Source: Streptomyces rubrogriseus
Lineage (GTDB): Bacteria > Actinomycetota > Actinomycetes > Streptomycetales > Streptomycetaceae
NCBI RefSeq assembly: GCF_027947575.1
Contig: NZ_CP116256.1
Span: forward strand, 5,828,001-5,892,000
DNA: 64,000 nt
Direction of reading: 5' to 3'
Below are positions 10,038-25,679 of the stretch, piece by piece. Positions within the stretch are counted from its first letter, which is position 1, and each line of letters starts with the position of its first letter. The position numbers were made by a program, and so were the translations under genes. The notes under the pieces are model-generated. The model worked only from the letters and a program-made list of their open reading frames with translations. It ran no database searches and had not been told where the DNA came from.

Positions 10038-10054
10038 CGCCCAAGCCGCGGAAG

Positions 10055-10084
10055 CCCCTGCCCCTGCCCCTGCCCCTGCCCCTG
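10055..10084. repeat. Short tandem repeat, five CCCCTG units
   Basis: Five consecutive CCCCTG hexamers lie between the regulator stop and the BKACE start. They are non-coding. Slippage could vary the copy number and hence the spacing of the leader. No function is implied. Confidence 0.7.
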
Positions 10085-10100
10085 CCCCGCCCGCACCCTG

Positions 10101-10117
10101 CTCCGGCACCGCCGGAG
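10101..10117 (+). terminator. Hairpin in the BKACE leader
   Basis: CTCCGGC-ACC-GCCGGAG forms a perfect 7-bp stem with a 3-base loop, 26 bases before the BKACE ATG. There is no T-tract. It could end transcription from the regulator, act as an operator for it, or attenuate the downstream genes. Confidence 0.4.
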
Positions 10118-10142
10118 TGGGAAGACCTCGGGAGGCCCCCGC

Positions 10143-11069
10143 ATGCCCATGACCGAGAACGTCATCATCACCTGCGCGCTCACGGGCGCCGGCGACACCG
10201 TCCGCAAGAGCCCCCACGTTCCCGTCACCCCGGAACAGATAGCCAGGAACGCCGTCGAGGCGGCCGCCGCCGGAGCGGCCGTCGTGCACATCCATGTACG
10301 CGACCCGGAGACCGGCGATCCGTCCCGCGACCCGAAGCTGTACCGGGAGGTCGTCGAGCGCGTCAAGGAGACCGGCACCGACGTCGTCATCAACCTCACC
10401 GCCGGCATGGGCGGCGATCTGGTCATCGACCCGGACGCCCCGCTCACCCACCTGCCCGGCACCGACCTCGTCGGCGGTCTGGAGCGCCTTCCGCACGTCG
10501 AGGACCTGCTTCCGGACATCTGCACGCTGGACTGCGGCTCGCTCAACTTCGGCGACGGCTCGAACCTCTACGTCTCCACTCCCGACATGCTGCGCGCGGG
10601 CGCGCGGCGCATCCAGGAGCTGGGCGTGCGGCCCGAGTTGGAGATATTCGACACGGGCCAGCTCTGGTTCGCCAAGCAGTTGCTCGCCGAGGGCCTGCTC
10701 GACGACCCGACCGTCTTCCAGCTGTGCATGGGCATCCCGTGGGGCGCGCCCGCGGACCCCGGGGTGCTCCAGTCCATGGTCAACATGCTGCCGGACGGTG
10801 CGCGCTGGGCGAGCTTCGCGCTCGGCCGGATGCAGATGCCGTGGGTCGCCCAGTCGATCCTGCTCGGCGGCCACGTCCGCGTGGGCCTGGAGGACAACCT
10901 GTACCTCGGCCGGGGCAACAAGGCGACCAACGCGCAGCTCGTCGAACGGGCCGTGACCCTCACCGAGTCGATGGGCGCCCGCGTCGCGACACCGGACGAG
11001 GCCCGCGCCACCCTCGGTCTCCGGCCCCGCGACCGGTCCGCCGCGACGACGAAGGAGCGCATCCGATGA
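10143..11069 (+). CDS. Beta-keto acid cleavage enzyme (BKACE, DUF849), probably for 3-dehydrocarnitine
   Basis: 308 residues, start ATG 10143 with GGGAGG upstream. The BKACE zinc site is visible as [17 protein letters not shown] near residue 47, with the conserved [18 protein letters not shown] and [16 protein letters not shown] segments. These enzymes transfer an acyl group from a beta-keto acid to CoA, using acetyl-CoA and releasing acetoacetate. Next to a carnitine-type dehydrogenase and a hotdog thioesterase, 3-dehydrocarnitine is the likely substrate and betainyl-CoA the product. The stop overlaps the next ATG. Another beta-keto acid is possible, but the three-gene context is characteristic. 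Confidence 0.88.
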
Positions 11070-12022
11070 CCTCCCCCGAGAACGTACGCCGCGTCGCCTG
11101 TGTCGGCGCCGGAGTCATCGGCGGCGGCTGGGTGGCCCATTTCCTGGCGCGCGGCTACGAGGTGACCGCCTGGGACCCGGCTCCCGACGCCGAACCGAGG
11201 CTGCGCCGCCTGGTCGAGGCGGCGTGGCCGACGCTCACCCGGCTCGGCCTCGCCGAGGGCGCGTCGACCGACCGGCTCACCGTCACCGGCACCCTGGAAC
11301 AAGCCGTCTCCGACGCCGAGTTCGTCCAGGAGAGCGCGCCCGAGAAGCTCGACCTCAAGCGCGATCTGCTGGCCCGCCTGGACGCGGCGACACCGCCCGG
11401 CGTCGTCATCGCCTCGTCCACCTCCGGCTATCCGATGACCGACATGCAGACGACGGCCGCGGACCCCTCGCGCCTGGTCGTCGGCCACCCGTTCAACCCG
11501 CCCTACCTCATCCCGCTCGTCGAGGTCGTCGGCGGCGAGCGCACCGACGCGGCGGCGGTGGCCTGGGCCTCCCGCTTCTACGAGGTCGCGGGCAAGTCCG
11601 TCATCACGATGGACAACGAGGTCCCGGGCTTCATCGCGAACCGCCTCCAGGAGGCGCTGTGGCGCGAGGCGCTGCACATGGTCGCGAGCGGTGAGGCGAC
11701 GGTCCGGGACATCGACCGGTCGATCACCGAGGGACCCGGGCTGCGCTGGGCGGTGATGGGACCGATGCTGACGTTCGCGCTCGCGGGCGGCGAGGGCGGC
11801 ATGGCGCACATGCTGGACCACTTCGGCCCGTCCCTGAAGTCGCCGTGGACGCGGCTGGCGGCGCCGGAGCTGGACAAGGAGTTGTACGACGCGGTGGTGG
11901 CCGGCTGCGACGAGGCGGCGGACGGCCGCTCCATCGCCGACCTGGTGGCCGAACGCGACCGGGGCGTCGTCGAGGTACTGCGCGCCACCGGCCGCCTGGG
12001 CCCCGAGGAGGACGCCCGATGA
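11066..12022 (+). CDS. L-carnitine 3-dehydrogenase (3-hydroxyacyl-CoA dehydrogenase fold)
   Basis: Start ATG 11066 overlaps the BKACE stop; 318 residues. The N-terminal Rossmann domain shows [13 protein letters not shown] (about residues 9-21) with the NAD-binding acidic residue in [10 protein letters not shown]. The 3HCDH domain carries [30 protein letters not shown] (catalytic His) and [23 protein letters not shown]. Length and motifs match stand-alone L-carnitine dehydrogenases, which oxidise carnitine to 3-dehydrocarnitine with NAD+. The product would feed the BKACE enzyme encoded just upstream. The stop again overlaps the next ATG, so all three enzymes are translationally coupled. Confidence 0.87.
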
Positions 12023-12498
12023 CCGGGCTCCCGCTGCTCCACCGCACGGTCCGGCCGGAGTGGATCGACTACAACGGCCACCTGAGCGAGGCCTTCTACG
12101 TCCTCGTCTTCGGTCACGCCACGGACGCGCTGATGGCCCGGGCGGGCCTGGACTCCGGCTACCGCGAGTCCACCCGCTGTTCCCTCTACACGGTCGAGTC
12201 CCACATCCGCTTCCTCCGCGACGTGCCCGAGGGGGCACATCTGGCCGTCCGCACCCGTGTGCTGGGCGCGGCGGCCCGCAAGGCGCGTTTCACGCACGAG
12301 ATGTACGTGGTGCCCGGACCGGACGCGGAGCCGGCGCCCGACGCGGCCGCGGTCGCGACGTCCGAGCTGCTCGCGGTCCACGTCGACCAGTTGGCGGGGC
12401 GGGCCACCGAGTTCCCCGAGTCGGTCCGGCGCCGCTTCACGGAGCTGACCGAGCCGCCTCCTCACTGGGCGGGCCGCTCGATTCCCGCGGTGGCCTGA
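12019..12498 (+). CDS. Hotdog-fold thioesterase, probably betainyl-CoA thioesterase
   Basis: 159 residues, start ATG 12019 within the upstream stop (ATGA). The 4HBT-type pattern RPEWIDYNGHLSEAFYVLVFGHATD begins near residue 13; the Asp/Asn pair in DYNGHL matches the catalytic region of this family. In carnitine catabolism a thioesterase of this type hydrolyses betainyl-CoA to glycine betaine, completing a three-enzyme carnitine-to-betaine route with the two genes upstream. Its last 62 bases overlap the 3' end of the convergent ABC transporter gene. Confidence 0.85.
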   Translation: MTGLPLLHRTVRPEWIDYNGHLSEAFYVLVFGHATDALMARAGLDSGYRESTRCSLYTVESHIRFLRDVPEGAHLAVRTRVLGAAARKARFTHEMYVVPGPDAEPAPDAAAVATSELLAVHVDQLAGRATEFPESVRRRFTELTEPPPHWAGRSIPAVA

Positions 12499-14353
12499 CG
12501 TGCGGGGGACCGCCGTCGCGGCGGTCCCCGTCGTCGCGGCGGTCCCCGTCGCCCGACGGGCCGGTGCTCTCGCCGAGGAAGCCGCCCGACTGGTGCCGCC
12601 ACAGCCTGGCGTAGGCGCCGTCCGCCGCGAGCAGCTTCTCGTGGGGGCCCTGCTCGACGACGCGTCCGCGGTCGAGGACGACGAGGCGGTCCATGCCGGC
12701 GACGGTGCTCAGTCGGTGGGCGACCACGAGGGCCGTACGTCCGTCCATCAGCCGCCACAGGGCGTCCTGGACGAGGAGTTCACTCTCCGAGTCCAGCGCG
12801 CTGGTCGCCTCGTCGAGCAGCAGGACCGGGGCGTCGCGCAGGATGGCCCGGGCGAGGGCGACGCGTTGGCGCTGGCCGCCGGACAGCTTCACCCCCCGCT
12901 CCCCCACCAGCGTGTCGAAGCCGTCCGGGAGCAGGTCGGCGAACTCGGTGACGTGCGCGGCCGCGGCGGCCGCGCGGATCTCCTCGTCGGTGGCGCCGGG
13001 CCGGGCGAAGGCGATGTTGTCCCGCAGGCTGCGGTGGAACATGGCGGGTTCCTGCGGGACGTAGGCGATCAGTGAGCGCAGATCGCTCTGGCGCAGCAGG
13101 CTGATGTCCTGGCCGCCGATCAGGATGCGTCCGGCGTCGATGTCCGACATCCGCAGCAGGAGCCTGGTGAGCGTGGTCTTGCCGCCGCCGGACCTGCCGA
13201 CCAGACCGATCCGGGCGCCCGCGGGCACGTCCAGGTCGAGCCCCCGGAAGATCGGCTTCGCACCCGCGTGCGCGAAGGTCACCGCCTCGAAGCGGATGCC
13301 GGAGTCCCGCGGCGCGAGGGGTGCGGGCGCGTCGGCGTCGACCACGGTGGGCGGATCCAGCAGCAGCTCGGTGAACTGGGCGGCCTCGGTCGTCGAGCTC
13401 TCCAGCCGCCGGTAGATCTGGTTGAACTCGAACATGATCTGGGTGGCGTTGGAGTAGTAGGTGAAGGCGACGACGACCTCCTCCACCCCCTGGCCCGGGC
13501 CGCCGAAGGCGATGGCGACCAACAGGCCCAGGACGTTGGTCAGTACGGACATGGGCGCGATCAGGGTGTCGACGCGCAGGTTGCCGTAGTCCCACGATCT
13601 CAGGGTCAGGCGCCGGGAGTCCGCGACCCTGCCGCGGTGTTCGGCCGCCTCCCGGCGCTCGGCCGCGAACGCCCGGACGGTCTCCATGTTCATGAGGCTG
13701 TCGGCGACATGGCCGGAGACCCGGGCGATCGCGGCCTCCCGGTCGTTGACGAGCCGTTGCCTGCGCCGGATCAGCGGTGTCGCGGCCACCACCGTCAGCG
13801 CGATCATCAGGAACAGGCCGACGACGAGCATCGGTTCGTAGCTCCACAGGACCACGGCCCCGAACACCAGGGGGACGAGACTGCCCACGATCCGGTACGT
13901 CACCGTGTCGACGAAGTCCTCGAAGCGCTTGCCGAAGCTGAGCACCCTTTTGGTCAGGGAGCCGGCGAAGTTGTCGTGGAAGAACGCGGCGTCCTTGGCG
14001 AGGAGTTCGTCCATGCCGCTCACGTACAGGTGCTCCATGCCGAGGGCGTCCACACGGTTCAGGCAGTGCTGCCCGACCCGCCAGACGGCCTCGGCGAGCA
14101 GCAGCGTCAGACCGAAGCCCAGCACGTACGGCAGCGCCCGGCCGAGGGTGAGACCGCCGTCGTCGGCGGCCTGCCCCGCCAGTTTGGCGATCAGCAGGGG
14201 CGCGACGTAGCGGATGCCGATGTTGCCCACGGCCGGCAGCAGCAGGGCGGGCAGGGCCAGCCGCCGCAGGCGCAGCAGTTCCCGGCCGTAGTGGCGCAGG
14301 GCCAGGACGACCGCGCTCCTGCCCGGCGCCGGTCCTCGCGTGTCTGTCGTCAC
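12437..14353 (-). CDS. ABC exporter, fused permease and ATPase
   Basis: The start was set at the GTG at 14353, 7 bases after GGGAG, giving 638 residues; longer versions lack a ribosome site. An N-terminal six-helix transmembrane domain (about 15-310) includes LLLPAVGNIGIRYVAPLL and LVVGLFLMIALTVVAA. The ATPase domain has Walker A GLVGRSGGGKTTL, signature LSGGQRQRVALARAIL, Walker B VLLLDEATSALD and the H-loop in VVAHRLST. It is a half-transporter and presumably works as a homodimer exporting a lipophilic compound or peptide. The C-terminal tail is a low-complexity D/R/G/P stretch running into the neighbouring thioesterase gene. It diverges from the GntR gene. Substrate unknown. Confidence 0.9.
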   Translation of the reverse strand: MTTDTRGPAPGRSAVVLALRHYGRELLRLRRLALPALLLPAVGNIGIRYVAPLLIAKLAGQAADDGGLTLGRALPYVLGFGLTLLLAEAVWRVGQHCLNRVDALGMEHLYVSGMDELLAKDAAFFHDNFAGSLTKRVLSFGKRFEDFVDTVTYRIVGSLVPLVFGAVVLWSYEPMLVVGLFLMIALTVVAATPLIRRRQRLVNDREAAIARVSGHVADSLMNMETVRAFAAERREAAEHRGRVADSRRLTLRSWDYGNLRVDTLIAPMSVLTNVLGLLVAIAFGGPGQGVEEVVVAFTYYSNATQIMFEFNQIYRRLESSTTEAAQFTELLLDPPTVVDADAPAPLAPRDSGIRFEAVTFAHAGAKPIFRGLDLDVPAGARIGLVGRSGGGKTTLTRLLLRMSDIDAGRILIGGQDISLLRQSDLRSLIAYVPQEPAMFHRSLRDNIAFARPGATDEEIRAAAAAAHVTEFADLLPDGFDTLVGERGVKLSGGQRQRVALARAILRDAPVLLLDEATSALDSESELLVQDALWRLMDGRTALVVAHRLSTVAGMDRLVVLDRGRVVEQGPHEKLLAADGAYARLWRHQSGGFLGESTGPSGDGDRRDDGDRRDGGPPHVRPPRESSGPPSEEAARSAP

Positions 14354-14539: not shown

Positions 14540-14555
14540 AACGTGACATTGTATA
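14540..14555 (-). promoter_or_regulatory. Candidate GntR operator, site A (GntR gene promoter)
   Basis: Read on the minus strand the sequence is TATACAATGTCACGTT. It shares CAATGTCAC exactly with site C upstream of the hydroxyproline operon and resembles site B upstream of the collagenase. It lies 45 bases before the GntR start, where an autoregulatory operator would be expected. Confidence 0.55.
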
Positions 14556-14599
14556 GTGGGAGGTCATTGGCTGGTCGGGCGCAGGACGCAGGAGCACGG

Positions 14600-15277
14600 A
14601 TGCCGCATCTCAAGTCCCAGGCGATCTCCGTCCAGACCCATCTGCGCGACCAGGTCGGTGACGCGCTCCGCGCCGCCCTCATCGCCGGTGACCTGCGTCC
14701 GGGGGTCGTCTACTCCGCCCCCACCCTCGCCGCGGAGTTGGGCGTCTCCGCGACTCCGGTGCGCGAGGCCATGCTGGACCTGGCCAGGGAGGGCCTGGTC
14801 GAAGCCGTGCGCAACAAGGGCTTCCGGGTCACCGAGATGACCGAGCGGGACCTCGACGAGTTCACCGAAATCCGAGCCCTGATCGAGGTTCCCACCGTGG
14901 GCCGCGTCGCCGCGACGGCGACCGCGGAGCAACTGGAGGCGCTGCGCCCGCTGGCACAGCAGATCGTCACCGCGGCCCGGAAGCACGACGTCCTCAAGTA
15001 CCTCGAAGCCGACCACCGGTTCCACCTGGAGCTGCTGGCCCTGGCGGGCAACCACCATCTCGTGGAGGTGGTGGGCGATCTGCGCAAGCGTTCACGCCTG
15101 TTCGGGCTGGGCAGCCTGAACGAGACGGGGCGGCTGGTCGCTTCCGCCCAGGAACACGTCGACCTCCTGGACCTGATGGCGGCCGGCCGCGGCACCGAGG
15201 CCGAGGAGTGCATGCGCCGCCATCTCGCGCACGTCCGCACACTGTGGGCGGACGGCAGGACGCACGTCGAGGACTGA
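14600..15277 (+). CDS. GntR/FCD-family regulator, probable controller of collagen and hydroxyproline use
   Basis: Start ATG 14600 behind CAGGAG; 225 residues. The N-terminal winged helix (about 10-80) includes LRDQVGDALRAALIAGDLRPG and ELGVSATPVREAMLDLAREGLVEA. A C-terminal FCD domain follows, with Asp/His metal-ligand candidates in EADHRFHLEL, AGNHHL, AQEHVDLL and MRRHLAHV. FCD regulators bind small acids and leave short palindromic operators. The gene sits between an ABC exporter and the collagenase. A 16-bp motif in its own promoter recurs before the collagenase and before the hydroxyproline operon. A role as their common regulator is inferred from that motif and the gene order. Confidence 0.9.
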   Translation: MPHLKSQAISVQTHLRDQVGDALRAALIAGDLRPGVVYSAPTLAAELGVSATPVREAMLDLAREGLVEAVRNKGFRVTEMTERDLDEFTEIRALIEVPTVGRVAATATAEQLEALRPLAQQIVTAARKHDVLKYLEADHRFHLELLALAGNHHLVEVVGDLRKRSRLFGLGSLNETGRLVASAQEHVDLLDLMAAGRGTEAEECMRRHLAHVRTLWADGRTHVED

Positions 15278-15384
15278 CCCGAAGAGCACCCTCGCCCTCA
15301 AGTCCCCTTTCGTGCAGGCCACTTGGTGACGACGGCAATCGCTGGGCCGTTATTCCGTCCGACCACTTCCCATGCCATGTCACC

Positions 15385-15400
15385 TGTGCAATGGTACATG
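15385..15400 (+). promoter_or_regulatory. Candidate GntR operator, site B (collagenase promoter)
   Basis: TGTGCAATGGTACATG, 14 of 16 bases identical to site C (22787-22802). It lies inside a larger imperfect palindrome at 15383-15407 whose outer arms are CCTGTGC and GCACAGG. It is about 150 bases before the collagenase start, in the 270-base gap between the GntR gene and the collagenase. Confidence 0.6.
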
Positions 15401-15547
15401 GCACAGGTCGTGGTCATGCCCATTTCAACGCAGCTCAAGGCATCGGCCGTGCCCCCGTCCGTTCGACGGCGCGGCCCTCCCCGATCCACGACTCCTTGAC
15501 CCTCCATGGGCCCGCGTCGCGTGGTCCCCACCCTCATGGGAGGCAAA

Positions 15548-17851
15548 GTGAGAACGTCATGTGTCCGGCGGCGTCCGGGGGCGGCCCTGCCGCTGGCCCT
15601 GGCCGTCGCCATGGGCGCCGGCCTGCCGCAGCGCAGCTACGGCGCCCTGCCCTCGGCCCCCGCGTCCGCCGCACGGGCCGCGCACACCGGACAGCAGCAC
15701 GCCGGTCCCCCGCCCGTGGCCCAGTCCGTCACCGCCCCGAGCGAGCATGTGGGCAGGGAGCGGCTGACGGCCTCGTCGATTCCCCCGCTGGCGGCGAGCA
15801 AGGACGCGCTCAAGCAGTCCTACGGGCAGCAGAAAGAGCCCGCGGAGCCGCGGACCGCGGACCGGGGGAAGCCCACGGCCGCGGCCGCCGCGTGCGACGT
15901 ATCCGCCTTCACCACCCGCACCGGCGGCGCACTGGTGCGGCAGATCAAGTCGGCCACGACCGACTGCGTCAACACCCTGTTCAACCTGACCGGAAACGAC
16001 GCCCACCAGGCCTTCCGCGAAGCACAGATGACCACCGTCGCCCACGCCCTGCGCGACGGTTCGGCGTCCTACCCCGGCAACGCCGGCACCGGCATGCCGC
16101 AGCTCGTGCTCTACCTCCGCGCCGGCTACTACGTGCACTACTACAACGCCAGTACGGTGGGCGGCTACGGCAGCACCCTGCAGACCGCGATACGCGCGGG
16201 GCTCGACGCCTTCTTCGCCAGTCCGCACTCCCGCGACGTCGGCGACGCCAACGGTGAGACCCTCGCGGAGGCCGTGACCCTCATCGACAGCGCCGAGGAG
16301 AACGCCCGCTACATCCACGTCGTCAAGCGGCTGCTGGCGGACTACGACTCCTCCTGGAACTCCTCCTGGTGGATGCTCAACGCGGTCAACAACGTCTACA
16401 CCGTGACCTTCCGTGGTCACCAGGTGCCCGCGTTCGTGAGCGCCGTCCAGTCGGATCCCGGCCTGATCGACGCCCTGTACGGCTTCGCGTCCGGTCACCT
16501 CGCACTCCTGGGTACGGACCAGTCCTACCTCACGTCCAACGCCGGTCGTGAACTCGGCAGGTTCCTGCAGCACTCCGCTCTGCGGAGCAAGGTCCGCCCG
16601 CTGGCCGCCGGCCTGCTGAACTCGACCTCGATCACCGGCACCACCGCCCCGCTCTGGGTCGGCGTCGCCGAGATGACCGCCTACTACGACCCCGCCAACT
16701 GCTCCTCCTACGGCACCTGCGACCTGCCGGCCCAGCTGGCGAAGGCGGTGCTGCCGGTGACGTACGCGTGCGGTTCCGGCATCACCATCAGGGCCCAGCA
16801 GATGTCGTCGGGCGAGCTGTCCTCCAGCTGTGACAGCCTGCGCGGCCAGGACGCCTACTTCCACTCGGTCGCCCGGGACGGCGGGCCGGTCGCGGGCGAC
16901 CAAAACGACACGATCGAGGTCGTGGTCTTCGACTCGAGCACCGACTACCAGACCTACGCCGGTGCCATGTTCGGAATCGACACCAACAACGGCGGCATGT
17001 ACCTCGAGGGCGACCCGTCGGCGACCGGCAACCAGCCGCGCTTCATCGCCTACGAGGCCGAATGGCTGCGCCCCGACTTCCAGATCTGGAACCTCAACCA
17101 CGAGTACACCCACTACCTCGACGGCCGCTTCGACATGTACGGCGACTTCGACGCCAACATCACCACCCCGACCATCTGGTGGGTCGAAGGTTTCGCCGAG
17201 TACGTCTCCTACTCCTACCGCGGCGTTCCGTACACCGAAGCGATGACCGAGGCCGGCCGCGGCACCTACGCGCTGAGCACCCTCTTCGACACCACGTACA
17301 GCCACGACACCACCCGCGTCTACCGCTGGGGCTACCTCGCCACGCGGTACATGCTTGAGAAGCACCGCGCCGACCTGGACACGGTTCTCGGCCACTACCG
17401 CGCAGGCGACTGGAACGCCGCCCGCGCCCATCTGACCGGCACCATCGGCACCCGCTACGACGACGACTGGTACACCTGGCTGGCGGGCTGCGCCGCCGGT
17501 GACTGCGGCGGCGGCACCGGCACCGAGTGCACCGGCACCGACACCAGGGAGCTGGGGCAGAACTGCCGGCGGAGCGGCCAGGCCGCCACCACCGGGAACT
17601 ACGCGTACCTCTACCTCCACGTCCCGGCCGGCACCGCGCGGCTGACGGTCACCACCTCCGGCGGCACGGGCGACGCGGACCTGTACTACGGCGACAGCGG
17701 CTGGCCGGGCACCACCGGCTACACACGGCGTGCCACGGGCGCCGGCAACAGCCACACCCTGACCGTCGACCGACCGGCGGCCGGCGCCCACTACATCAGT
17801 CTGTACGCGGTGGACGGCTTCGACGGGGTGACCGTCGCCACCGGCTACTGA
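15548..17851 (+). CDS. Secreted M9-type collagenase (zinc metalloprotease)
   Basis: GTG 15548 is preferred because GGGAGG lies 5 bases upstream; 767 residues. A Sec-type signal peptide (MRTSCVRRRPGAALPLALAVAMGAG) is followed by a variable linker and the M9 N-terminal activator region (about 115-400). The catalytic zinc site is H518-E-Y-T-H522 in NLNHEYTHYLDGRF, with the third ligand Glu547 in WWVEGFAEYV. A C-terminal PPC-type domain (about 655-767; ATTGNYAYLYLHVPAGTARL) probably binds substrate. Collagen is rich in 4-hydroxyproline, and the operon converging on this gene degrades exactly that amino acid. A shared promoter motif supports joint control. Confidence 0.93.
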   Translation: MRTSCVRRRPGAALPLALAVAMGAGLPQRSYGALPSAPASAARAAHTGQQHAGPPPVAQSVTAPSEHVGRERLTASSIPPLAASKDALKQSYGQQKEPAEPRTADRGKPTAAAAACDVSAFTTRTGGALVRQIKSATTDCVNTLFNLTGNDAHQAFREAQMTTVAHALRDGSASYPGNAGTGMPQLVLYLRAGYYVHYYNASTVGGYGSTLQTAIRAGLDAFFASPHSRDVGDANGETLAEAVTLIDSAEENARYIHVVKRLLADYDSSWNSSWWMLNAVNNVYTVTFRGHQVPAFVSAVQSDPGLIDALYGFASGHLALLGTDQSYLTSNAGRELGRFLQHSALRSKVRPLAAGLLNSTSITGTTAPLWVGVAEMTAYYDPANCSSYGTCDLPAQLAKAVLPVTYACGSGITIRAQQMSSGELSSSCDSLRGQDAYFHSVARDGGPVAGDQNDTIEVVVFDSSTDYQTYAGAMFGIDTNNGGMYLEGDPSATGNQPRFIAYEAEWLRPDFQIWNLNHEYTHYLDGRFDMYGDFDANITTPTIWWVEGFAEYVSYSYRGVPYTEAMTEAGRGTYALSTLFDTTYSHDTTRVYRWGYLATRYMLEKHRADLDTVLGHYRAGDWNAARAHLTGTIGTRYDDDWYTWLAGCAAGDCGGGTGTECTGTDTRELGQNCRRSGQAATTGNYAYLYLHVPAGTARLTVTTSGGTGDADLYYGDSGWPGTTGYTRRATGAGNSHTLTVDRPAAGAHYISLYAVDGFDGVTVATGY

Positions 17852-17901
17852 CCCGGCGCGGATCCGGCGCGGACCCGGCGCGGGAGCGACCGACGCGCCG
17901 G

Positions 17902-17932
17902 GGCCCGGGGCGGCGCGAAGCCGCCCCGGGCC
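17902..17932. terminator. Bidirectional terminator between collagenase and hydroxyproline operon
   Basis: A perfect 13-bp GC stem (GGCCCGGGGCGGC / GCCGCCCCGGGCC) with loop GCGAA, located between two convergent genes. It has no T-tract, which is usual for Streptomyces hairpin terminators. Confidence 0.8.
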
Positions 17933-17951
17933 GCAGGCGTGGGTCCCGTGC

Positions 17952-18953
17952 TCAGAGGGTGAAACCCGCCGGGTAGGGGTCCGAGGGATCGAGCAGGTAC
18001 TGCGCGGTGCCGGTGATCCAGGCCCGGCCCGTGACGGAGGGCAGGACGGCCGGGCGGTCCCCGACCGTCGTCTCCCCGAGGATCCGCCCGACGAAGCGGG
18101 AGCCGATGAACGACTCGTTGACGAAGTCCCGGCCGGACGGCAGCAGGCCACGGGCGTGCAGTTGCGCCATGCGGGCGCTGGTGCCCGTGCCGCAGGGCGA
18201 CCGGTCGAACCATCCCGGATGGATCGCCATGGCGTGCCGCGAGTGCTCCGCGGTCGATCCGGGCGCTTCGAGGTAGACGTGGTGGCACACGTCGATGTCC
18301 GGATTCTCTGGGTGGGACACCGGGTTCTGCTTGTTGATCGCGTCCATGACGGCCAGTCCGGCGTCCAGCAGCGGCTGCTTGTGCGCCCGCTCGAAGGGGA
18401 TGCCGAGGTCGTCGGTCCGGACGAAGGCGTAGAAGTTGCCGCCGTAGGCGATGTCGTAGCGCACCTCCCCGTGTCCGGGGACGTCGACGACCTGGTCGAG
18501 GGCATGGGAGTACGACGCCACGTTCTCCAGGGTCACCGACTCGGCGTGGCCGTCGCGCACCCTTACCCGGGCCGTGACCAGTCCGGCCGGGGTGTCGAGC
18601 CGGACCGTCGTCTCCGGCTCGGTCACCTCGACCATGCCGGTCTCGACCAGGACCGTGGCGACACCGATGGTCCCGTGCCCGCACATCGGCAGGCAGCCGG
18701 AGACCTCGATGAAGAGCACGCCGTAGTCGGCGTCCGGCCGGGTGGGGGGTTGCAGCACGGCCCCGGACATCGACGCGTGTCCGCGCGGCTCGCACATGAG
18801 CAGGGTGCGCAGGTGGTCGCGTTCCGCGACGAACCGCTGCCGCCGCTCGAACATCGTCGCGCCGGGGAGGACGCCCACCCCGCCCGTGATCACGCGGGTC
18901 GGCATCCCCTCGGTGTGCGAGTCGACGGCGTGGTAGCAGACCGTCGAACGCAT
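17952..18953 (-). CDS. 4-Hydroxyproline 2-epimerase (proline racemase family)
   Basis: 333 residues, last gene of the operon; its start lies 2 bases after the upstream stop. Both catalytic cysteines are present: C91 in PMCGHGTIG and C254 in SPCGTGTSAR. That makes it an epimerase/racemase rather than a 3-hydroxyproline dehydratase, which has Thr in the second position. The family ranges over proline racemase and trans-4-hydroxy-L-proline 2-epimerase. The neighbouring deaminase and FAD dehydrogenase identify it as the hydroxyproline enzyme that makes cis-4-hydroxy-D-proline, the first step of the pathway. Confidence 0.9.
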   Translation of the reverse strand: MRSTVCYHAVDSHTEGMPTRVITGGVGVLPGATMFERRQRFVAERDHLRTLLMCEPRGHASMSGAVLQPPTRPDADYGVLFIEVSGCLPMCGHGTIGVATVLVETGMVEVTEPETTVRLDTPAGLVTARVRVRDGHAESVTLENVASYSHALDQVVDVPGHGEVRYDIAYGGNFYAFVRTDDLGIPFERAHKQPLLDAGLAVMDAINKQNPVSHPENPDIDVCHHVYLEAPGSTAEHSRHAMAIHPGWFDRSPCGTGTSARMAQLHARGLLPSGRDFVNESFIGSRFVGRILGETTVGDRPAVLPSVTGRAWITGTAQYLLDPSDPYPAGFTL

Positions 18954-18955
18954 CG

Positions 18956-19852
18956 TCAGTTCACCCCGGCGTCGATGAGGGCCTGGGTGGCGGCGCGCAC
19001 GACCGCCTCGGTCTCCGGGCCGAGCGGCTGACGCGGCGGGCGGCAGGGACCACCACGGCGGCCGGTCAGCTCCTGGCCGAGCTTGATGGCCTGGACGAAC
19101 TCCGTCTTGCTGTCCCACCGCAGCACCGGGTGCAGTTGCCGGTAGAGCGGCAGCGCCGCCTCCAGGTCGCCTCGGACGGACGCCTCGTACAGCGCCAGAC
19201 AGGCCCGGGGGAAGACCTGCGGGTAACCGGCGACCCAGCCCTTGGCACCGGCGAGGGCGACCTCCAGCACGGTGTCGTCGGTGCCGATCATGAGGTCGAG
19301 GCCGGGGGCCAGCTCGGAGATCTCGTAGCAGCGCCGGACGTCGCCGGAGAACTCCTTGACCCCGACGATGTACCCCTCGGCGTGCAGCTTGGCCAGCAGG
19401 TCGGGGCGCAGGTCCACCTTGGTGTCGATGGGGTTGTTGTACGCGGTGACGGGCAGGCCCACCGAGGCGACCCGTTCGAAGTGCTGGAGCACCGCGCGGT
19501 CGTCGGCGCGGTAGGCGTTGGGCGGCAGGCACATGACGGCCTGACAGCCCGCGTCCTTGGCGAACCGGGCGTGCCGCTCGGCCTCGCGACCGCCGTAGGC
19601 GCCGACGCCCGGCATGACGGTGAAGCCCTCGGGGGCGTTCGCGACGGCGGTCTCCACGACGCGGTCGCGCTCCTCGTACGTGAGGGTCTGGTACTCGCCC
19701 AGCGATCCGTTCGGCGCGACGCCGTGCATCCCCTGCGCGGCGAGGTGGGCGACGCTCTCGCCGTACGCGCCGAAGTCGACCGAGAGATCGTCGTCGAACG
19801 GCAGGCTGGTGGCGACGATGACGCCGTGCCAGGGCTTGCGGGTCTCGCTCAT
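18956..19852 (-). CDS. DHDPS-family 1-pyrroline-4-hydroxy-2-carboxylate deaminase
   Basis: The ATG at 19852 was chosen because AAGGAG lies 5 bases ahead; a GTG two codons upstream is too close to it. 298 residues with a dihydrodipicolinate-synthase TIM barrel. The Schiff-base lysine is K166 (VGVKEFSGD) and the catalytic tyrosine Y138 (TAYNNP). In hydroxyproline operons this member deaminates pyrroline-hydroxycarboxylate to alpha-ketoglutarate semialdehyde. Its start overlaps the upstream flavoprotein stop. The following enzyme, alpha-ketoglutarate semialdehyde dehydrogenase, is not in the window and must be encoded elsewhere. Confidence 0.88.
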   Translation of the reverse strand: MSETRKPWHGVIVATSLPFDDDLSVDFGAYGESVAHLAAQGMHGVAPNGSLGEYQTLTYEERDRVVETAVANAPEGFTVMPGVGAYGGREAERHARFAKDAGCQAVMCLPPNAYRADDRAVLQHFERVASVGLPVTAYNNPIDTKVDLRPDLLAKLHAEGYIVGVKEFSGDVRRCYEISELAPGLDLMIGTDDTVLEVALAGAKGWVAGYPQVFPRACLALYEASVRGDLEAALPLYRQLHPVLRWDSKTEFVQAIKLGQELTGRRGGPCRPPRQPLGPETEAVVRAATQALIDAGVN

Positions 19853-21348
19853 GGACACTCCTTGTCGGTTTCACTGCTGTCCGCCGTTACCGCCGAAGTC
19901 GCCGGTACGGGCGGTGCCGCCGATACCTGCGGGTCTTCGTCGAGGTCGGCGAGGGCCCCGAGGGTGACGGGCGTCGCGACGAGCCGTTCCGCGGGCTCGT
20001 AGGCCCGGCGCCGCGCCGTGAGGCAGTGCACGGCGGGTCCGCACATCCGCCCCTGGCACCAGCCCATGCCGGCCCGGGTCAGTTGCTTGATCTGCCGGTG
20101 GTCGGGTGCGCCGTCGGCGCGGGCGGTCCGGATCGCACCGGCGGTCACCTCCTCGCAGCGGCACACGACGGTCTCGTCGGTCAGCCACGAGGACCAGGCC
20201 GGAGGAACCGGATGGGCCAGCGCCATCGCCCGGGCGAAGGCGCGTTGCCGGTCCACCGCCGAACGCAGCGCCGTCAGGCGCCTGTTCGCCGGTACGGGGG
20301 TGGCGCGGGCGTCTGCGAGGACCGACGCCGCGGCCAGCCGGCCCTCGTTCACGGCGAGTGCCGCCCCGCCCACCCCGCACGTCTCCCCCGCCGCGTAGAG
20401 GCCGGGGACGGTGGTGCGCTGGCCCCTGTCGACCGCGACCACCGCGTTGCCGTCCGCCGAGTCCGTGAGGGAAGCCCCGAGGGGAACGAGCAGGTCGAGC
20501 TGGGGTGCGAAGCCCCAGCCGACGCCGACGGCGTCCACCTGCACGCGTCGTTCCGTGCCCGGGCGCGGGCTGCCGTCCGGGGCCAGCGAGGCGATCCGTA
20601 CCGACGTCACGCGTTCGTCGCCCTCCGCGGCGACGATGGCGGTGCGCGGGCGGACCGGGACGCGGTGGCGCACGAGCGTGGCGGCGTACCCGGCGCCCTC
20701 GGCCCACTTGTCGGGATTGCGCAGTAGCGGGCCGGGGTGCCGCAGCCAGGCCCGGGGGTGGGCCGCCTCGCACACCGCGACCACCTCGACGCCGCGGGCC
20801 GCGAGTCCGGCGGCGACCGGCAGCAGGAACGGGCCCGTGCCGCCCAGCGCGACCCGGCTGCCGGCGGCCACTCCACTGCCCTTGAGCAGGGCCTGCATCC
20901 CGCCGGCGGTCAGCACGCCGGGCAGGTCCCATCCCGGGAAGGGCAGTTGGCGGTCGTAGGCGCCGGTGGCCACCAGGAGTCTCGCCGCCCGCAGGACGAC
21001 GGCGGTCTCCGGCGGAGCCTCGCGGCGGTCGACCGCGTGGACCGCGAATCCGTCGCCCTCGCGGACCGCGGACCACGCGTGGTGCCCCAGGCGCAGGTCG
21101 AGCCGGCCCGCCGTCCGGTGTGCCGCCAGCGCCCCGCACAGGGCGCGGTACCGGTCCAGTCCGTGGTGCAGGTCGTCGGTCGGTACGGCCGCCCGCGCGT
21201 GCTCGGGCGGGTGGCGCCAGTACTGACCGCCGAGGGCGGTTCCGGAGTCCAGCAGGGCGACGCGCAGTCCGCCGGCCAGCGCCGTGGCCGCGGCGGCCAT
21301 GCCTGCCGGGCCCGCGCCGACGACGACGAGGTCCGCGGGCTCACTCAT
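19849..21348 (-). CDS. D-hydroxyproline dehydrogenase, FAD/NAD(P)-binding subunit with BFD-type iron-sulfur tail
   Basis: 499 residues. The N-terminal FAD motif is DLVVVGAGPAGMAAA (about 6-20), and GGQYWRHPPEH is typical of HcnB/opine-oxidase-like alpha subunits. The second nucleotide site is RVALGGTGPFLLP, and GLYAAGETCGVGGAA completes the pyridine-nucleotide oxidoreductase fold. Near residue 405 a BFD-like [2Fe-2S] cluster motif, VVCRCEEVT followed by GMGWCQGRMCGPAV, supplies four cysteines. With the ferredoxin-like gene and the DadA-like gene upstream it should form a heteromeric D-hydroxyproline dehydrogenase passing electrons to an acceptor. It overlaps the ferredoxin-like gene by 8 bases. 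Confidence 0.88.
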   Translation of the reverse strand: MSEPADLVVVGAGPAGMAAAATALAGGLRVALLDSGTALGGQYWRHPPEHARAAVPTDDLHHGLDRYRALCGALAAHRTAGRLDLRLGHHAWSAVREGDGFAVHAVDRREAPPETAVVLRAARLLVATGAYDRQLPFPGWDLPGVLTAGGMQALLKGSGVAAGSRVALGGTGPFLLPVAAGLAARGVEVVAVCEAAHPRAWLRHPGPLLRNPDKWAEGAGYAATLVRHRVPVRPRTAIVAAEGDERVTSVRIASLAPDGSPRPGTERRVQVDAVGVGWGFAPQLDLLVPLGASLTDSADGNAVVAVDRGQRTTVPGLYAAGETCGVGGAALAVNEGRLAAASVLADARATPVPANRRLTALRSAVDRQRAFARAMALAHPVPPAWSSWLTDETVVCRCEEVTAGAIRTARADGAPDHRQIKQLTRAGMGWCQGRMCGPAVHCLTARRRAYEPAERLVATPVTLGALADLDEDPQVSAAPPVPATSAVTADSSETDKECP

Positions 21349-21595
21349 CGTCGTCCTCCAGGGTCGTGACGGTCATGCCCGGCCGGGCCGGCACCAGGCA
21401 GGCGCGCTGCCCGCGGGCTCCGTCGACGGTGACGAGGCAGTCGAAGCAGACGCCGATGCCGCAGAAGACGCCACGCGGGCGGTGTCCGACGCGGGTGGTG
21501 CGCCAGGCGACACGGCCCGCCGCGACGAGGGCCGCGGCGACGGTCTGACCCTCGGCGTACGGCAGGGGCTCGCCGTCGACGACGATCTCGCTCAC
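21341..21595 (-). CDS. Small [2Fe-2S] subunit of D-hydroxyproline dehydrogenase
   Basis: A small 84-residue protein starting at GTG 21595, which overlaps the stop of the preceding DadA-like gene. Plant-type ferredoxin ligands are in FCGIGVCFDCLVTVDGARGQRAC, spaced C-x4-C-x2-C-x11-C. It matches the HcnA-like small subunit of multi-subunit amino acid dehydrogenases. It probably relays electrons between the two flavin subunits encoded on either side. Confidence 0.88.
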   Translation of the reverse strand: MSEIVVDGEPLPYAEGQTVAAALVAAGRVAWRTTRVGHRPRGVFCGIGVCFDCLVTVDGARGQRACLVPARPGMTVTTLEDDDE

Positions 21596-22758
21596 TGGGG
21601 CGCACCTCCGGGGGTGAGGAAGCGGTCGGGGAGAAGGGCGGTGTGGGCGGCCGGATCGGCGCCCCGCCAGGGCCGGCCGAGCAGGTGGGCCGTGACGAGC
21701 GCGCCGGTGGCGGGGGCGAGGCCGATGCCGGCCCCCTCGTGGCCGCACGCGTGGACGACGCCCGGCACCCGCGGGTCGGGGCCCACCACCGGCAGGTGGT
21801 CCGGGCAGTACGGCCGGAAGCCGCGGTAGGCGCGCATCAGATGGACTCCGCGCAGGAAGGGGAAGAGCCGGCACGCCTGGGCCGCGAGCCGGGCGAGAAC
21901 GGCGGTGTTCATCGTGGTGTCGAAACCGACGCGTTCCCGGCTGGCGCCGATGAGGATCGTGCCGCCGCGCGTGCCCTCCACGACGCAGGAGGTCTCCAGT
22001 CCCGCGTCGGAGGAGGCGACGTTGGCCACGTAGTCGGCGGAGTAGACCTTGTGCCGGACCATCGGCGGCAGCGGTTCGGTCACCAGGACGAAGCCGCGGC
22101 GCGGCAGTACCTCGACGGGGGCGCCGAGCCGCCGTCCGACCTCACCGCCCCAGGTTCCGGCGGCGTTGACGACGGCGTCGGCGGGCAGCACGTCACCGGC
22201 GGCCGTCCGGACACCGGTGACGCGGCCGTCCCGGCCGGTCACCGCTCCGGCCACCTCGCCCGGGTGGAAACGCGCGCCGCGCCGTACGGCGGCCCGCAGC
22301 AGCGCGGCCGCCGCCAGCACGGGCTGCACCTGCGCGTCCTGCGGGTAGTGGACGCCGCCGGGGATCCCGGGTGCGAGGTGGGGTTCGAGGTCCCGCACCC
22401 GGTCGACCTGCTCGACGCGGACACCGGCCGCCTCCTGCCGGGCGGCGAACTCCTGGAGCGCCGCGAGGTTCTCGACGCCGTCCGCCACCACCAGGCCGCC
22501 CTTCGCCTCCAGTTCGAGGGAGTCGGGTCCCAGCTCCCGGCCGGCCTCGTCCCACAACGTGCGGCTCAGGTGTGCCAGGGCGAGTTCGGGGCCGGGTTCC
22601 TTGTCGGAGAGGAGGACGTTGCCCTCTCCGCGGCTGGTCGTCCCGGCGCCTACGGGGCCGCGGTCGGTGACCGTGACGTCCATGCCCGCCGAGACGGCGT
22701 GGAAGGCGCAGGCGGCGCCGACGACTCCCGCGCCCACGACGACGACCTTCAGGGTCAA
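21592..22758 (-). CDS. D-hydroxyproline dehydrogenase, DadA-like catalytic FAD subunit
   Basis: Starts at TTG 22758 behind an exceptionally strong GGAGGAGGAG ribosome site; 388 residues. FAD-binding VVVVGAGVVGAACAF (about 5-19) opens a DAO-family fold, with SRGEGNVLLSDK, VVNAAGTWGGEVGRRLG and the C-terminal HACGHEGAGIGLAPATG. It is the first gene of the hydroxyproline operon and carries the substrate-oxidising flavin. The TTG start in a highly expressed position is unusual, but no upstream in-frame ATG or GTG is better placed. Confidence 0.87.
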   Translation of the reverse strand: MTLKVVVVGAGVVGAACAFHAVSAGMDVTVTDRGPVGAGTTSRGEGNVLLSDKEPGPELALAHLSRTLWDEAGRELGPDSLELEAKGGLVVADGVENLAALQEFAARQEAAGVRVEQVDRVRDLEPHLAPGIPGGVHYPQDAQVQPVLAAAALLRAAVRRGARFHPGEVAGAVTGRDGRVTGVRTAAGDVLPADAVVNAAGTWGGEVGRRLGAPVEVLPRRGFVLVTEPLPPMVRHKVYSADYVANVASSDAGLETSCVVEGTRGGTILIGASRERVGFDTTMNTAVLARLAAQACRLFPFLRGVHLMRAYRGFRPYCPDHLPVVGPDPRVPGVVHACGHEGAGIGLAPATGALVTAHLLGRPWRGADPAAHTALLPDRFLTPGGAPQ

Positions 22759-22786
22759 CGGCTCCTCCTCCGTGCACGCACCTCAC

Positions 22787-22802
22787 TGTGCAATGTCACA
22801 TG
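22787..22802 (+). promoter_or_regulatory. Candidate GntR operator, site C (hydroxyproline operon promoter)
   Basis: TGTGCAATGTCACATG lies 29 bases upstream of the operon's TTG start. It is framed by outer arms CTCACT (22782) and AGTGAG (ending 22813). It matches site B in 14 of 16 bases and shares CAATGTCAC with site A. Confidence 0.62.
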
Positions 22803-22887
22803 CGATGAGTGAGGCTATACATCCGGCAGGCGGAAGACAACGCCCACTTCACCGCCGGCGGCCGGCGAGGGTGGGAGATCGACCCCG

Positions 22888-22933: not shown

Positions 22934-23779
22934 TCACGCCCGGAGCGGGGCGGCGACCCGGTCGCGGTGGCCGTCGTACGGGGCGAGGAGGTCGCCGGGG
23001 CCGAGCAGCGACGGGCCGGTGCCCGGCGGCGGGTCGAGTACCTCGGACTGGAGGCGCTGGATCTCGGGCGAGGGTTCGAGGCCGAGCTCGGTGTCCAGAA
23101 TCCGGTAGAGGCACTGGTACGCCTCCAGCGCCTCCGCACGCCGGCCGGCCCGGTGCAGGGCGCGGATCAGTCGCCCATGGAACCACTCGTTGAGTGGGAA
23201 GTCGTGGACCAGTGAACGCAGTTCGGGGATCGATCCCCGTTCCCGGCCGAGGCGGCGGTCCGCCTCGAGTGCCAGTTCCAGCGCTCGTATGCGGACCTCC
23301 TCCAGATGCACCGCGCGCGCCGTGAGCGCCCGGCCCACCGGGACGTTGGACAGCATGGGGCCACGCCACAGGGCGAGCGCGGCGCGTGCGCTGTCGGCGG
23401 CGGACTGGAGACGGCCCTGGTCCAGTTCCGTCCTCGCCCGGTCCACGAGCCGCTGGAAGACGGTGCTGTCCACCTCCTCGTCGGTGACCCGGATGACATA
23501 GCCGGGGGCGTGGGTGGCCAGCAGCCGGCGTTCGCCGTCGGTGAGCCGCCGGTCGCGGAACATCCGGCGCGCCTGGTGGATGTACGTCTGGACGGTGGCG
23601 TGGGCGCTGCGCGGCGGGTCGTCGCCCCACAGCTCCTGGATGACGGAGTCCGCCGCGACGATCTCGTTCGGCCGGGTCAGCAGCAGGGCGAGTGTCCGGC
23701 AGACCTTGGGCGTGGTGGGCAGATGCACCCTGCCGTCATCGCCGATGATCTCGAACGGGCCCATGAGATTGAACCGCAC
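22934..23779 (-). CDS. cpkN: SARP-family pathway regulator CpkN
   Basis: GTG 23779 was chosen: AGGAG lies 9 bases ahead and the protein then begins MRFNLMGPFEI, the usual SARP opening. 281 residues: an OmpR-type winged helix (about 1-95; TPKVCRTLALLLTRPNEIVAADSVIQELWG) and a bacterial transcriptional activation domain (about 100-245). SARPs bind direct repeats beside the -35 region and recruit RNA polymerase. It holds the position of S. coelicolor cpkN, next to scoT and scbR2, and marks the left edge of the cpk cluster. An ARE-like element lies in its leader. It is much shorter than the second SARP (CpkO) at 31.6-33.3 kb. Confidence 0.9.
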   Translation of the reverse strand: MRFNLMGPFEIIGDDGRVHLPTTPKVCRTLALLLTRPNEIVAADSVIQELWGDDPPRSAHATVQTYIHQARRMFRDRRLTDGERRLLATHAPGYVIRVTDEEVDSTVFQRLVDRARTELDQGRLQSAADSARAALALWRGPMLSNVPVGRALTARAVHLEEVRIRALELALEADRRLGRERGSIPELRSLVHDFPLNEWFHGRLIRALHRAGRRAEALEAYQCLYRILDTELGLEPSPEIQRLQSEVLDPPPGTGPSLLGPGDLLAPYDGHRDRVAAPLRA

Positions 23780-23908
23780 TGCCTCACACTCCTGTCCCGG
23801 CACACGGGTTGCCGTGCCGCGGATGTCGTACGTACACGGAGATCCGGCCGCCGCGGAACGCGGGACTCACCGGCCGCCGGGTGGCGGGACCGCGGAGTCG
23901 GGAGAAGA

Positions 23909-23920
23909 GACCGAGCGGTC
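23909..23920. promoter_or_regulatory. ARE-like palindrome in the cpkN leader
   Basis: GACCGAGCGGTC (arms GACCG / CGGTC) lies in the 145-base gap between scoT and cpkN. On the minus strand it is preceded by GAAACG, giving an AAACGGACCG...CGGTCTCTT pattern like butyrolactone-receptor operators. The match is weaker than for the two cpkO operators, so this is only a candidate. Confidence 0.4.
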
Positions 23921-23924
23921 CGTT

Positions 23925-24731
23925 TCATTGTGGGCCAGGAGTGCCCACTGGGGACTCACCATGAAGCAACGCCCGCTGCCCGGGACCGGGTGCGGCCGTG
24001 GCGCGCAGTGCGGACCGGACGATACCGGCGACCTCGGGGACGCTCTGGTCGAGATAGAAGTGGCCGCCCGGCAGCACCCTCAGGTCGGATCCCGCGGTGG
24101 TGTGCTCGCGCCACGCGGCGGCGGCCGCCACGGGGACGACGGGGTCCCGGTCCCCGACCAGGACCGTGACGGGGACGGCGAGCGGCGGACCCGGCTGCCA
24201 GGTGTAGGCCCCGACCGCCCGGTAGTCGGCGCGCAGCGGCGGCATCACCATCTCCATCACGTCCGGGTCGTCGAAGACCTTCCCCACCGTGCCGCCGAGC
24301 CGGCGGATCATGGCGATGACCTTCTCGTCGGTGTCCAGCCGGTCGCTGTCACTGCCCTGCGGCGTGGGCGCGAACCGGCCGGACAGGAACAGGTGGCACG
24401 GTCCGGGCAGTGCGCGCCGCCGCAGTTCGCGGGCGAGTTCGTAGGCGAGCAGCGCACCCATGCTGTGCCCGAAGAACGCGTGCGGGCGGTCGGCGAACGG
24501 GGCCAGTTCCCCGGCGAGCGCGTCCACCAGCAGCCCGATGTCCGCGAGCGGCGGTTCCCGCCTGCGGTCCTGGCGGCCCGGGTACTGCACCGACAGGACG
24601 TCGAACTCGGGCGTCAGTTCCCGGGACAGCGCGAGGAAGGCTCCCGCGGCGCCGCCCGCGTGCGGGAAGCAGAGCAGCCTGAGGCCGCTGTCGGGTGCGG
24701 GACCGAACCGCCTGAACCAGTCACTTCCCAT
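23925..24731 (-). CDS. scoT: Type II (editing) thioesterase ScoT
   Basis: 268 residues, alpha/beta-hydrolase fold. Markers are LLCFPHAGGAAGAF, the nucleophile elbow GHSMGALLAYELA near residue 99, the acid in LVGDRDPVVP and the catalytic histidine in LPGGHFYLDQS. Type II thioesterases remove stalled or wrongly decarboxylated acyl groups from PKS carrier proteins. Position and neighbours match scoT in the cpk cluster. It diverges from scbR2 across 232 bases and is co-oriented with cpkN. The C-terminal 30 residues are longer and less ordered than in typical members. Confidence 0.92.
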   Translation of the reverse strand: MGSDWFRRFGPAPDSGLRLLCFPHAGGAAGAFLALSRELTPEFDVLSVQYPGRQDRRREPPLADIGLLVDALAGELAPFADRPHAFFGHSMGALLAYELARELRRRALPGPCHLFLSGRFAPTPQGSDSDRLDTDEKVIAMIRRLGGTVGKVFDDPDVMEMVMPPLRADYRAVGAYTWQPGPPLAVPVTVLVGDRDPVVPVAAAAAWREHTTAGSDLRVLPGGHFYLDQSVPEVAGIVRSALRATAAPGPGQRALLHGESPVGTPGPQ

Positions 24732-24963
24732 CGCTTCTTCCCCTTACCGTTCGCCGTGTGCGGCCGGCCCGCGGCGGACCCGACGGAGTGCGGGCCCGGA
24801 GCGGACGGGACCAGGGTGGACCCCGCCGCTGGTGGACGGCATGAGATCGGCCAGAGGGAGCGCACGGTGCTCGCGCGATTACCGCCCGGTGGGGGCGGCA
24901 CGTGACACTGGGGTGCCACTTATCCCGCCTTGGGGCTCGACGATCGCGACCACGGAGCACGAC

Positions 24964-25638
24964 ATGACCAAGCAGGAGCGGGCGGCACGTACGCGTCGAG
25001 CGCTGATTCTCTCCGCCGCCGAGGTGTTCGACCAGGAGGGTTTCGCGCCCGCGTCGCTCACGATGATCAGCTCCCGGGCCGGGGTGAGCAACGGGGCACT
25101 GCACTTCCACTTCGCGAACAAGAGCGCGGTGGCCGAGGCGGTGCAGGGCGAGGCGTTGTCGGTGCTCCGGCAGATCGCCCACTCGCGGCCGGAGGGGGCC
25201 GCGCCCTCGCTCCAGTCCCTCGTCGACACCTCGCACACGCTGGCCCAGCGGCTCCAGGACGATGTCGTGCTGCGGGCCGGCTTCGGGCTGAGCGGGGACG
25301 CGACGTGGAAGGAACGGGCCGATCTGCGGCGCCACTGGGTGGACTGGGTGAGCAGCGGCCTGACCGTGGTCGCCCTGGACGGCGCCCTCGCGGACGACGT
25401 CGCCACGGGCGACGCGCTGGCGGTGATCGCGGCGACGACGCTGGGGTTCGAGGCCATGGGCCGGACGGATCCGCAGTGGTCGACGCGGGAGATGTTCACC
25501 CGGCTGTGGCGGCTGCTGCTGCCGCGGATCTCGGCGGACAACGGCACGGGGACGGTCGCACCGGAAGGCACCGGCGCCCCGGACACCGTCGTGCCGGGTC
25601 CTCGCTGGTGGCCGGCGAGGCAGGACGCGCCGCGCTGA
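24964..25638 (+). CDS. scbR2: ScbR2-type pseudo gamma-butyrolactone receptor (TetR family)
   Basis: 224 residues from ATG 24964. The TetR HTH at about 5-50 reads TRRALILSAAEVFDQEGFAPASLTMISSRAGVSNGALHFHFANKSAVAEAV, the characteristic pattern of ArpA/ScbR receptors. The ligand domain follows, and the last 30 residues are disordered. In S. coelicolor ScbR2 does not bind butyrolactones but responds to end-product antibiotics and represses cpkO. Synteny with scoT and cpkL/cpkK supports the ScbR2 assignment over ScbR; no butyrolactone synthase (scbA) is in the window. Its operators before cpkO are conserved. Confidence 0.88.
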   Translation: MTKQERAARTRRALILSAAEVFDQEGFAPASLTMISSRAGVSNGALHFHFANKSAVAEAVQGEALSVLRQIAHSRPEGAAPSLQSLVDTSHTLAQRLQDDVVLRAGFGLSGDATWKERADLRRHWVDWVSSGLTVVALDGALADDVATGDALAVIAATTLGFEAMGRTDPQWSTREMFTRLWRLLLPRISADNGTGTVAPEGTGAPDTVVPGPRWWPARQDAPR

Positions 25639-25679
25639 CCCGAACCCCACGGCACGGTCCGGCCGGCGCTCCGCACATG

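Follow-up and report, generated by a model that had tools for sequence, protein, structure and literature searches.

A probable HypR regulon joining a secreted M9 collagenase gene to hydroxyproline catabolism in Streptomyces rubrogriseus

The 64 000-nucleotide stretch of the Streptomyces rubrogriseus chromosome analysed here (the window) carries a GntR regulator gene, a collagenase gene and a hydroxyproline operon side by side, with related short motifs in front of each, and so raises the question of whether one regulator governs all three. A first-pass annotation had proposed such a regulon and had called it a system not previously described. The window very probably does contain a regulon of this kind, that of HypR, and the shared-operator mechanism fits both experiments in S. 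coelicolor and conservation across Streptomyces; the claim of novelty fails, as Kotowska et al. (2019; PMC6608401) describe the system with its collagenase. In the parts of their report drawn on here, HypR (SCO6294) is a FadR-subfamily GntR repressor whose site TACAATGTCAC in the hypR promoter has been mapped by footprinting. HypR also binds and represses SCO6289–6293 and the M9 collagenase gene SCO5912, both through TGCAATGTCAC, and kgd (SCO5281) through TGCAATGTGAC, with autorepression weaker than repression of the other targets. The regulon is induced by L-Hyp and growth on L-Hyp requires the epimerase gene; HypR binding in vitro was unaffected by L-Hyp, D-Hyp or L-Pro. Added here to the 2019 work are the clustered arrangement, an overlooked collagenase site and genus-wide comparative support; the genes, the sites, their conservation and the linkage are direct observations on this locus. 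In the open-access literature we found neither the clustered hypR–collagenase–operon order nor a genus-wide collagenase operator, and likewise no M9/hypR linkage, co-occurrence or composite operator.

Genes and operator sites of the locus

The genes had been correctly recognized in the first pass as encoding an FCD-GntR protein, an M9 collagenase, members of the proline-racemase and DapA families and three D-amino-acid dehydrogenase-like subunits (Table 1). Trans-3-hydroxyproline dehydratases have one of their two catalytic cysteines replaced; the window epimerase carries both (C91 and C254) and scores 366.3 bits against NCBIfam NF010578, just below the cut-off of 376, and 321 and 305 bits against the dehydratase models (cut-offs of 550 and 540). 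The deaminase contains K166 within the segment GVKEFS (residues 164–169). The start of colA is an inferred GTG (the list of open reading frames has an ATG at 15506), its product contains the zinc motif HEYTH (HEXXH) and it is the sole M9 match in this genome. HypR has the same length as the corrected S. coelicolor protein, and the nine residues compared with those named in PMC6608401 are all identical, comprising the DNA-contact residues S50, T52, R55, R71 and N72 and the pocket residues R92, F141, H186 and L209.

Table 1. Features of the hypR–collagenase–hydroxyproline locus (window coordinates)
Feature	Position	Strand	Sequence or supporting matches
ABC transporter divergent from hypR, SCO6295 counterpart	12437..14353	-	Pfam ABC_tran, ABC_membrane
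Site A, candidate operator of hypR	14540-14555	-	TATACAATGTCACGTT
hypR orthologue, GntR (FadR/FCD) repressor, 225 aa	14600..15277	+	Pfam GntR, FCD
Site B1, collagenase promoter	15373-15383	+	TGCCATGTCAC
Site B2 (site B of the first pass), core of candidate collagenase operator	15385-15400	+	TGTGCAATGGTACATG
colA, secreted M9 collagenase, 767 aa	15548..17851	+	Pfam M9, M9_N, PPC
Hydroxyproline 2-epimerase (proline racemase family), SCO6293 counterpart	17952..18953	-	Domain and NCBIfam matches; C91, C254
Pyrroline-4-hydroxy-2-carboxylate deaminase (DapA family), 298 aa, SCO6292 counterpart	18956..19852	-	Pfam
D-hydroxyproline dehydrogenase alpha subunit, SCO6291 counterpart	19849..21348	-	Pfam Pyr_redox_2, Fer2_BFD; soxA-like
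D-hydroxyproline dehydrogenase gamma subunit, 84 aa, SCO6290 counterpart	21341..21595	-	Pfam Fer2_4
D-hydroxyproline dehydrogenase beta subunit, SCO6289 counterpart, first gene of operon	21592..22758	-	Pfam DAO
Site C, candidate operator of hydroxyproline operon	22787-22802	+	TGTGCAATGTCACATG

The 16-base sequences earlier assigned as sites A, B and C were all found at their positions and on their strands, with B and C identical at 14 of 16 bases as claimed. Site A contains TACAATGTCAC exactly (14543–14553, minus strand), the same as the footprinted S. coelicolor site, and overlaps a putative −10 element of hypR (TATAGT at 14552–14557, called by eye). Similarly, site C contains TGCAATGTCAC exactly (22789–22799), as in the SCO6289 promoter. 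For the collagenase gene the site proposed earlier (B2) was correctly located and matches the published core at all but two bases; B1, a better match that ends one base 5′ of B2, had been overlooked. EMSA has shown that S. coelicolor HypR binds the B1 11-mer where it occurs in other promoters of that species (PMC6608401). The kgd site TGCAATGTGAC occurs at G000:C1:7026065, 105 bp 5′ of a frame with a 2-oxogl_dehyd_N match. Near this site (L101, 1617–3010) the N-terminal and acyltransferase domains of kgd lie in different frames, either through a frame break or through a sequencing error in the Pro/Ala-rich linker.

The locus resembles the S. coelicolor A3(2) regulon (PMC6608401) in its 225-residue FCD-GntR protein with identical named residues, in the operator sequences at hypR, the operon and kgd, in an operon content equal to SCO6289–6293 and in the inclusion of an M9 collagenase. 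The collagenases themselves, compared by domains, differ: SCO5912 has 865 residues and a PKD domain, whereas Pfam gave no PKD match in the 767-residue window protein. SCO5912 also lies far from hypR as judged by locus number, whereas colA sits between hypR and the operon, and the one site listed for it is TGCAATGTCAC, compared with TGCCATGTCAC beside TGTGCAATGGTACA at colA. S. lividans TK24 likewise has counterparts of SCO6289–6293 and grows on trans-4-hydroxyproline (PMC4113996, eLife 2014); in the main text of that report, the part used here, the word collagen is absent. Hydroxyproline catabolism in Sinorhizobium meliloti is, according to PMC6608401, controlled by a further GntR (FadR)-like repressor, likewise named HypR, whereas in Pseudomonas aeruginosa it is controlled by LhpR, an AraC-family activator; the passages of that paper on these two proteins mention no collagenase target.

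Several neighbouring features were also recorded. Membership of the divergent ABC transporter in the regulon is doubtful, and the HypR effect on SCO6295 was judged probably indirect by the S. coelicolor authors (PMC6608401). A HypR paralogue with 51% identity is encoded elsewhere in the same genome (G000:C1:6027261–6027848), and paralogues of about 50% identity are present in other genomes too. Window positions 9180–12498 contain genes for a BKACE enzyme and a 3-hydroxyacyl-CoA dehydrogenase, together with thioesterase-like and regulator reading frames assigned by eye, a set that we take to resemble a carnitine breakdown operon. On the other side, a SARP-type regulator gene (BTAD domain) adjoins the hydroxyproline operon and is followed by thioesterase-like and TetR-like reading frames recognized by eye (22934–25650). 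Since the coelimycin cluster (SCO6269–6288) borders the operon in S. coelicolor (PMC6608401), a coelimycin-like cluster may follow it here.

Co-occurrence and linkage of hypR and M9 genes

The loci compared were the best 80 of 553 candidates encoding a HypR relative, and a further comparison covered 61 genomes of the genus; both sets are mutually related, so that their counts are not independent. An M9 homologue (tblastn, E 1e-10, up to 10 kb either side of hypR) was found in 41 of these best 80 loci, 22 of them near and 19 distant homologues. M9 genes fall into at least two groups, 46–77% and 24–27% identical to that of the window; the one member checked of the 23-gene distant group (L030) is a Peptidase_M9. 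With cut-offs of E 1e-30 for M9 and E 1e-65 for HypR, the latter excluding the paralogue of about 50% identity, M9 matches were present in 30 and HypR matches in 48 of the 61 genomes (both in 29, M9 only in one, HypR only in 19, neither in 12; Fisher p 0.001, without correction for kinship). The lone M9-only genome (G004) has a 310-residue match with an internal stop.

These counts bear on the possibility that the operon and its regulon serve the use of plant cell-wall hydroxyproline in general, with the collagenase link secondary and not needed for operon use. Hydroxyproline does occur in plant and algal cell walls (PMC6608401), and the 19 genomes with hypR and without an M9 match agree with such a role; the presence of hypR in 29 of the 30 M9-bearing genomes, with only the interrupted G004 match as an exception, and the recurrent linkage of the two genes weigh against it. 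We regard this explanation, which is compatible with the regulon itself, as unlikely.

The two genes lie within 20 kb of each other in 14 of the 30 M9-bearing genomes, different contigs being scored as unlinked, and the collagenase order of the window recurs in locus L024. The nearest relatives in the comparison include S. tendae and S. violaceorubidus; the five nearest (L014–L017 and L022) have hypR and the operon, with no collagenase gene there or elsewhere in the genome at E 1e-20. On the tree the label 'M9 within 10 kb' needs five changes; locus L040 goes without the label, its collagenase gene being about 13 kb away. colA may be a recent insertion at this locus. In one genome (G065, L018, contigs C114 and C76) hypR is present twice, at 90% and 88% identity to the window gene; one copy is beside the operon and the second is 240 bp from a collagenase gene, on a different contig from the operon.

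Conservation and placement of the operator sites

The first-pass annotation had considered that the motif might be absent or scrambled in orthologous loci; to the contrary, it is kept. Among the best 80 of 553 loci, TACAATGTCAC is the best site 5′ of hypR in 75, and 49 of the 52 usable operon upstreams contain GTGACATTGCAC (17) or GTGACATATTAC (32), neither being found in the remaining three (L024, L049 and L089). We scanned 66 M9 upstreams, 37 from the best 80 of 553 loci and 29 from other genomes, with a matrix built solely from hypR and operon sites (133, of which 39 are distinct); the M9 genes of L032, L038, L049 and L050, which come without upstream sequence, were left out, and site positions before distant M9 genes are rough, their starts being extrapolated from alignments. 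The score exceeded all 60 shuffles before 60 of the 66 genes and at least 57 of the 60 shuffles before 62; the scan gave no HypR-like site before the M9 genes of L052, L076, L116 and L125, and weaker scores in L053 and L118. In L075 and L081 the best match is the hypR site itself in a shared region, with a collagenase site also present in each. Control upstreams beat all shuffles in one of 69 cases for the epimerase, none of 56 for dehydrogenase alpha and none of 33 for the ABC transporter. The fourth control, the deaminase, did so in 40 of 65, because this gene has its own separate site in another group of loci. In that group (most of those loci among L027–L093 that have the 57–65% type of dehydrogenase beta) the deaminase–epimerase pair has a HypR-like site, mostly TAAAATGTCAC, and the dehydrogenase genes keep their GTGACATATTAC site, which would divide the regulon of these loci into two units.

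At the collagenase promoters the B1–B2 pair is retained, for example as ACATGTCACC TGTGCAATGGTACA TGTCACAGG in L019 and L020. Across 19 promoters, that of the window and those of 18 relatives, the mean modal base frequency falls from 0.94 in the core to 0.74 and 0.78 in the flanks next to it, and to 0.47 and 0.54 farther out; these promoters were picked and aligned on the core, so that only the contrast between flanks is independent of the picking. Of 28 collagenase upstreams with at least 58% identity in which the core was found, 24 have TGTSAY at most 16 bp before it (against 0.25% of random 20-base pieces) and 17 have a right-hand element. From these alignments the collagenase operator looks composite, consisting of B1 and B2. 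The symmetry of the HypR consensus was described as unclear by the S. coelicolor authors (PMC6608401). A best match to TGTGNNATNNCACA that keeps at least eight of its ten fixed bases lies upstream of 54 of 55 operons (5.8% of shuffles), of 59 of 64 collagenase genes (9.8% of shuffles; L075 and L081 left out) and of only 19 of 83 hypR genes (7.6% of shuffles). The hypR site is the least symmetric of the operators, which would fit the weaker repression of hypR in S. coelicolor.

HypR could instead control only itself and the hydroxyproline operon, the collagenase gene being a neighbour whose promoter elements serve a different regulator, or none at all. Such an arrangement would agree with the two bases by which B2 departs from the published core and with the 15 of 29 genomes in which both genes are present but lie more than 20 kb apart or on separate contigs. 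It is made very improbable by B1, an exact copy of a published HypR-bound 11-mer, by the conservation of the collagenase promoter elements and by the repression of SCO5912 in S. coelicolor (PMC6608401).

By number alone the motif is ordinary. With up to three mismatches, the 16-base motif of the first pass has three matches in the window, one of them an overlapping reverse read of site B (shuffle mean 1.12; 10 of 100 shuffles reach three), and the published core with up to one mismatch also has three, all exact (shuffle mean 1.17; 12 of 100 reach three); matches within the window are by themselves not striking. TRCMATGTCAC occurs five times in the 8 411 861-base chromosome, and the pattern read backwards has no match in the same sequence. 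As about 3.7 matches are expected from base composition, the count is unremarkable and it is the placement that matters: three of the five lie in the three window promoters (14543–14553 on the minus strand, and 15373–15383 and 22789–22799 on the plus strand). Background frequency genome-wide, named in the first pass as evidence that would speak against the regulon, therefore describes the number of matches and not their placement. The pattern TGTRNNATNNYACA, chosen post hoc after the sites, including those of relatives, had been seen, occurs at two chromosomal places, exactly sites B and C (about 1.8 expected). TGCAATGNNAC has nine places in the chromosome, six of which are TGCAATGACAC. Chance similarity of the motifs, to which the near-expected numbers of matches in window and genome would be congenial, is rejected as scarcely credible on the placement of three of five matches in these promoters and on their conservation in relatives.

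A larger HypR regulon in this genome was considered and rejected. The two further TRCMATGTCAC places are L013 and L009, both on the other strand. Judged by locus layout, the L013 match extends into the beginning of a gene for a polyketide cyclase; the L009 locus was covered as a list of open reading frames. SCO5315 of S. coelicolor is presumably a cyclase gene. HypR bound a SCO5315 fragment carrying the 11-mer of L013, but the promoter was inactive (PMC6608401).

Proposed regulation and its implications

We are highly confident in a regulon in which HypR, acting at its own, the operon and the collagenase promoters, coordinates collagenase production with hydroxyproline use; binding, repression and induction by L-Hyp at these sites are carried over by analogy from S. 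coelicolor. HypR would bind a FadR-type operator, roughly TGTGNNATNNCACA, at the three promoters: site A, over the −10 element of hypR, would give weak autorepression, site C would repress the hydroxyproline operon, and the composite B1–B2 operator would repress the collagenase gene. Once hydroxyproline enters the cell and is metabolized, repression would lift and collagenase would be secreted, and the epimerase, D-hydroxyproline dehydrogenase and deaminase would convert the released hydroxyproline to alpha-ketoglutarate semialdehyde. kgd would be a distant member of the regulon, as in S. coelicolor.

More tentatively, and as a possibility rather than an expectation, hypR and the M9 collagenase gene may form a co-inherited regulator–effector pair across Streptomyces that can leave the operon, as in G065. 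A composite operator of at least two overlapping HypR sites (about CATGTSACCTGTGCNATNGTACATGNCACAGG) might then repress more tightly than the operon's single site, or do so cooperatively. Hydroxyproline use would in that case be turned on ahead of the collagenase, a secreted and costly enzyme.

The comparison suggests that a circuit demonstrated in one Streptomyces has apparently been kept across much of the genus, and it bears on the symmetry of the HypR binding site, which was left open in the S. coelicolor work (PMC6608401). Natural loci in which the regulator, the secreted collagenase and the catabolic operon occur together would lend themselves to experiments and to the induction of Streptomyces collagenases.
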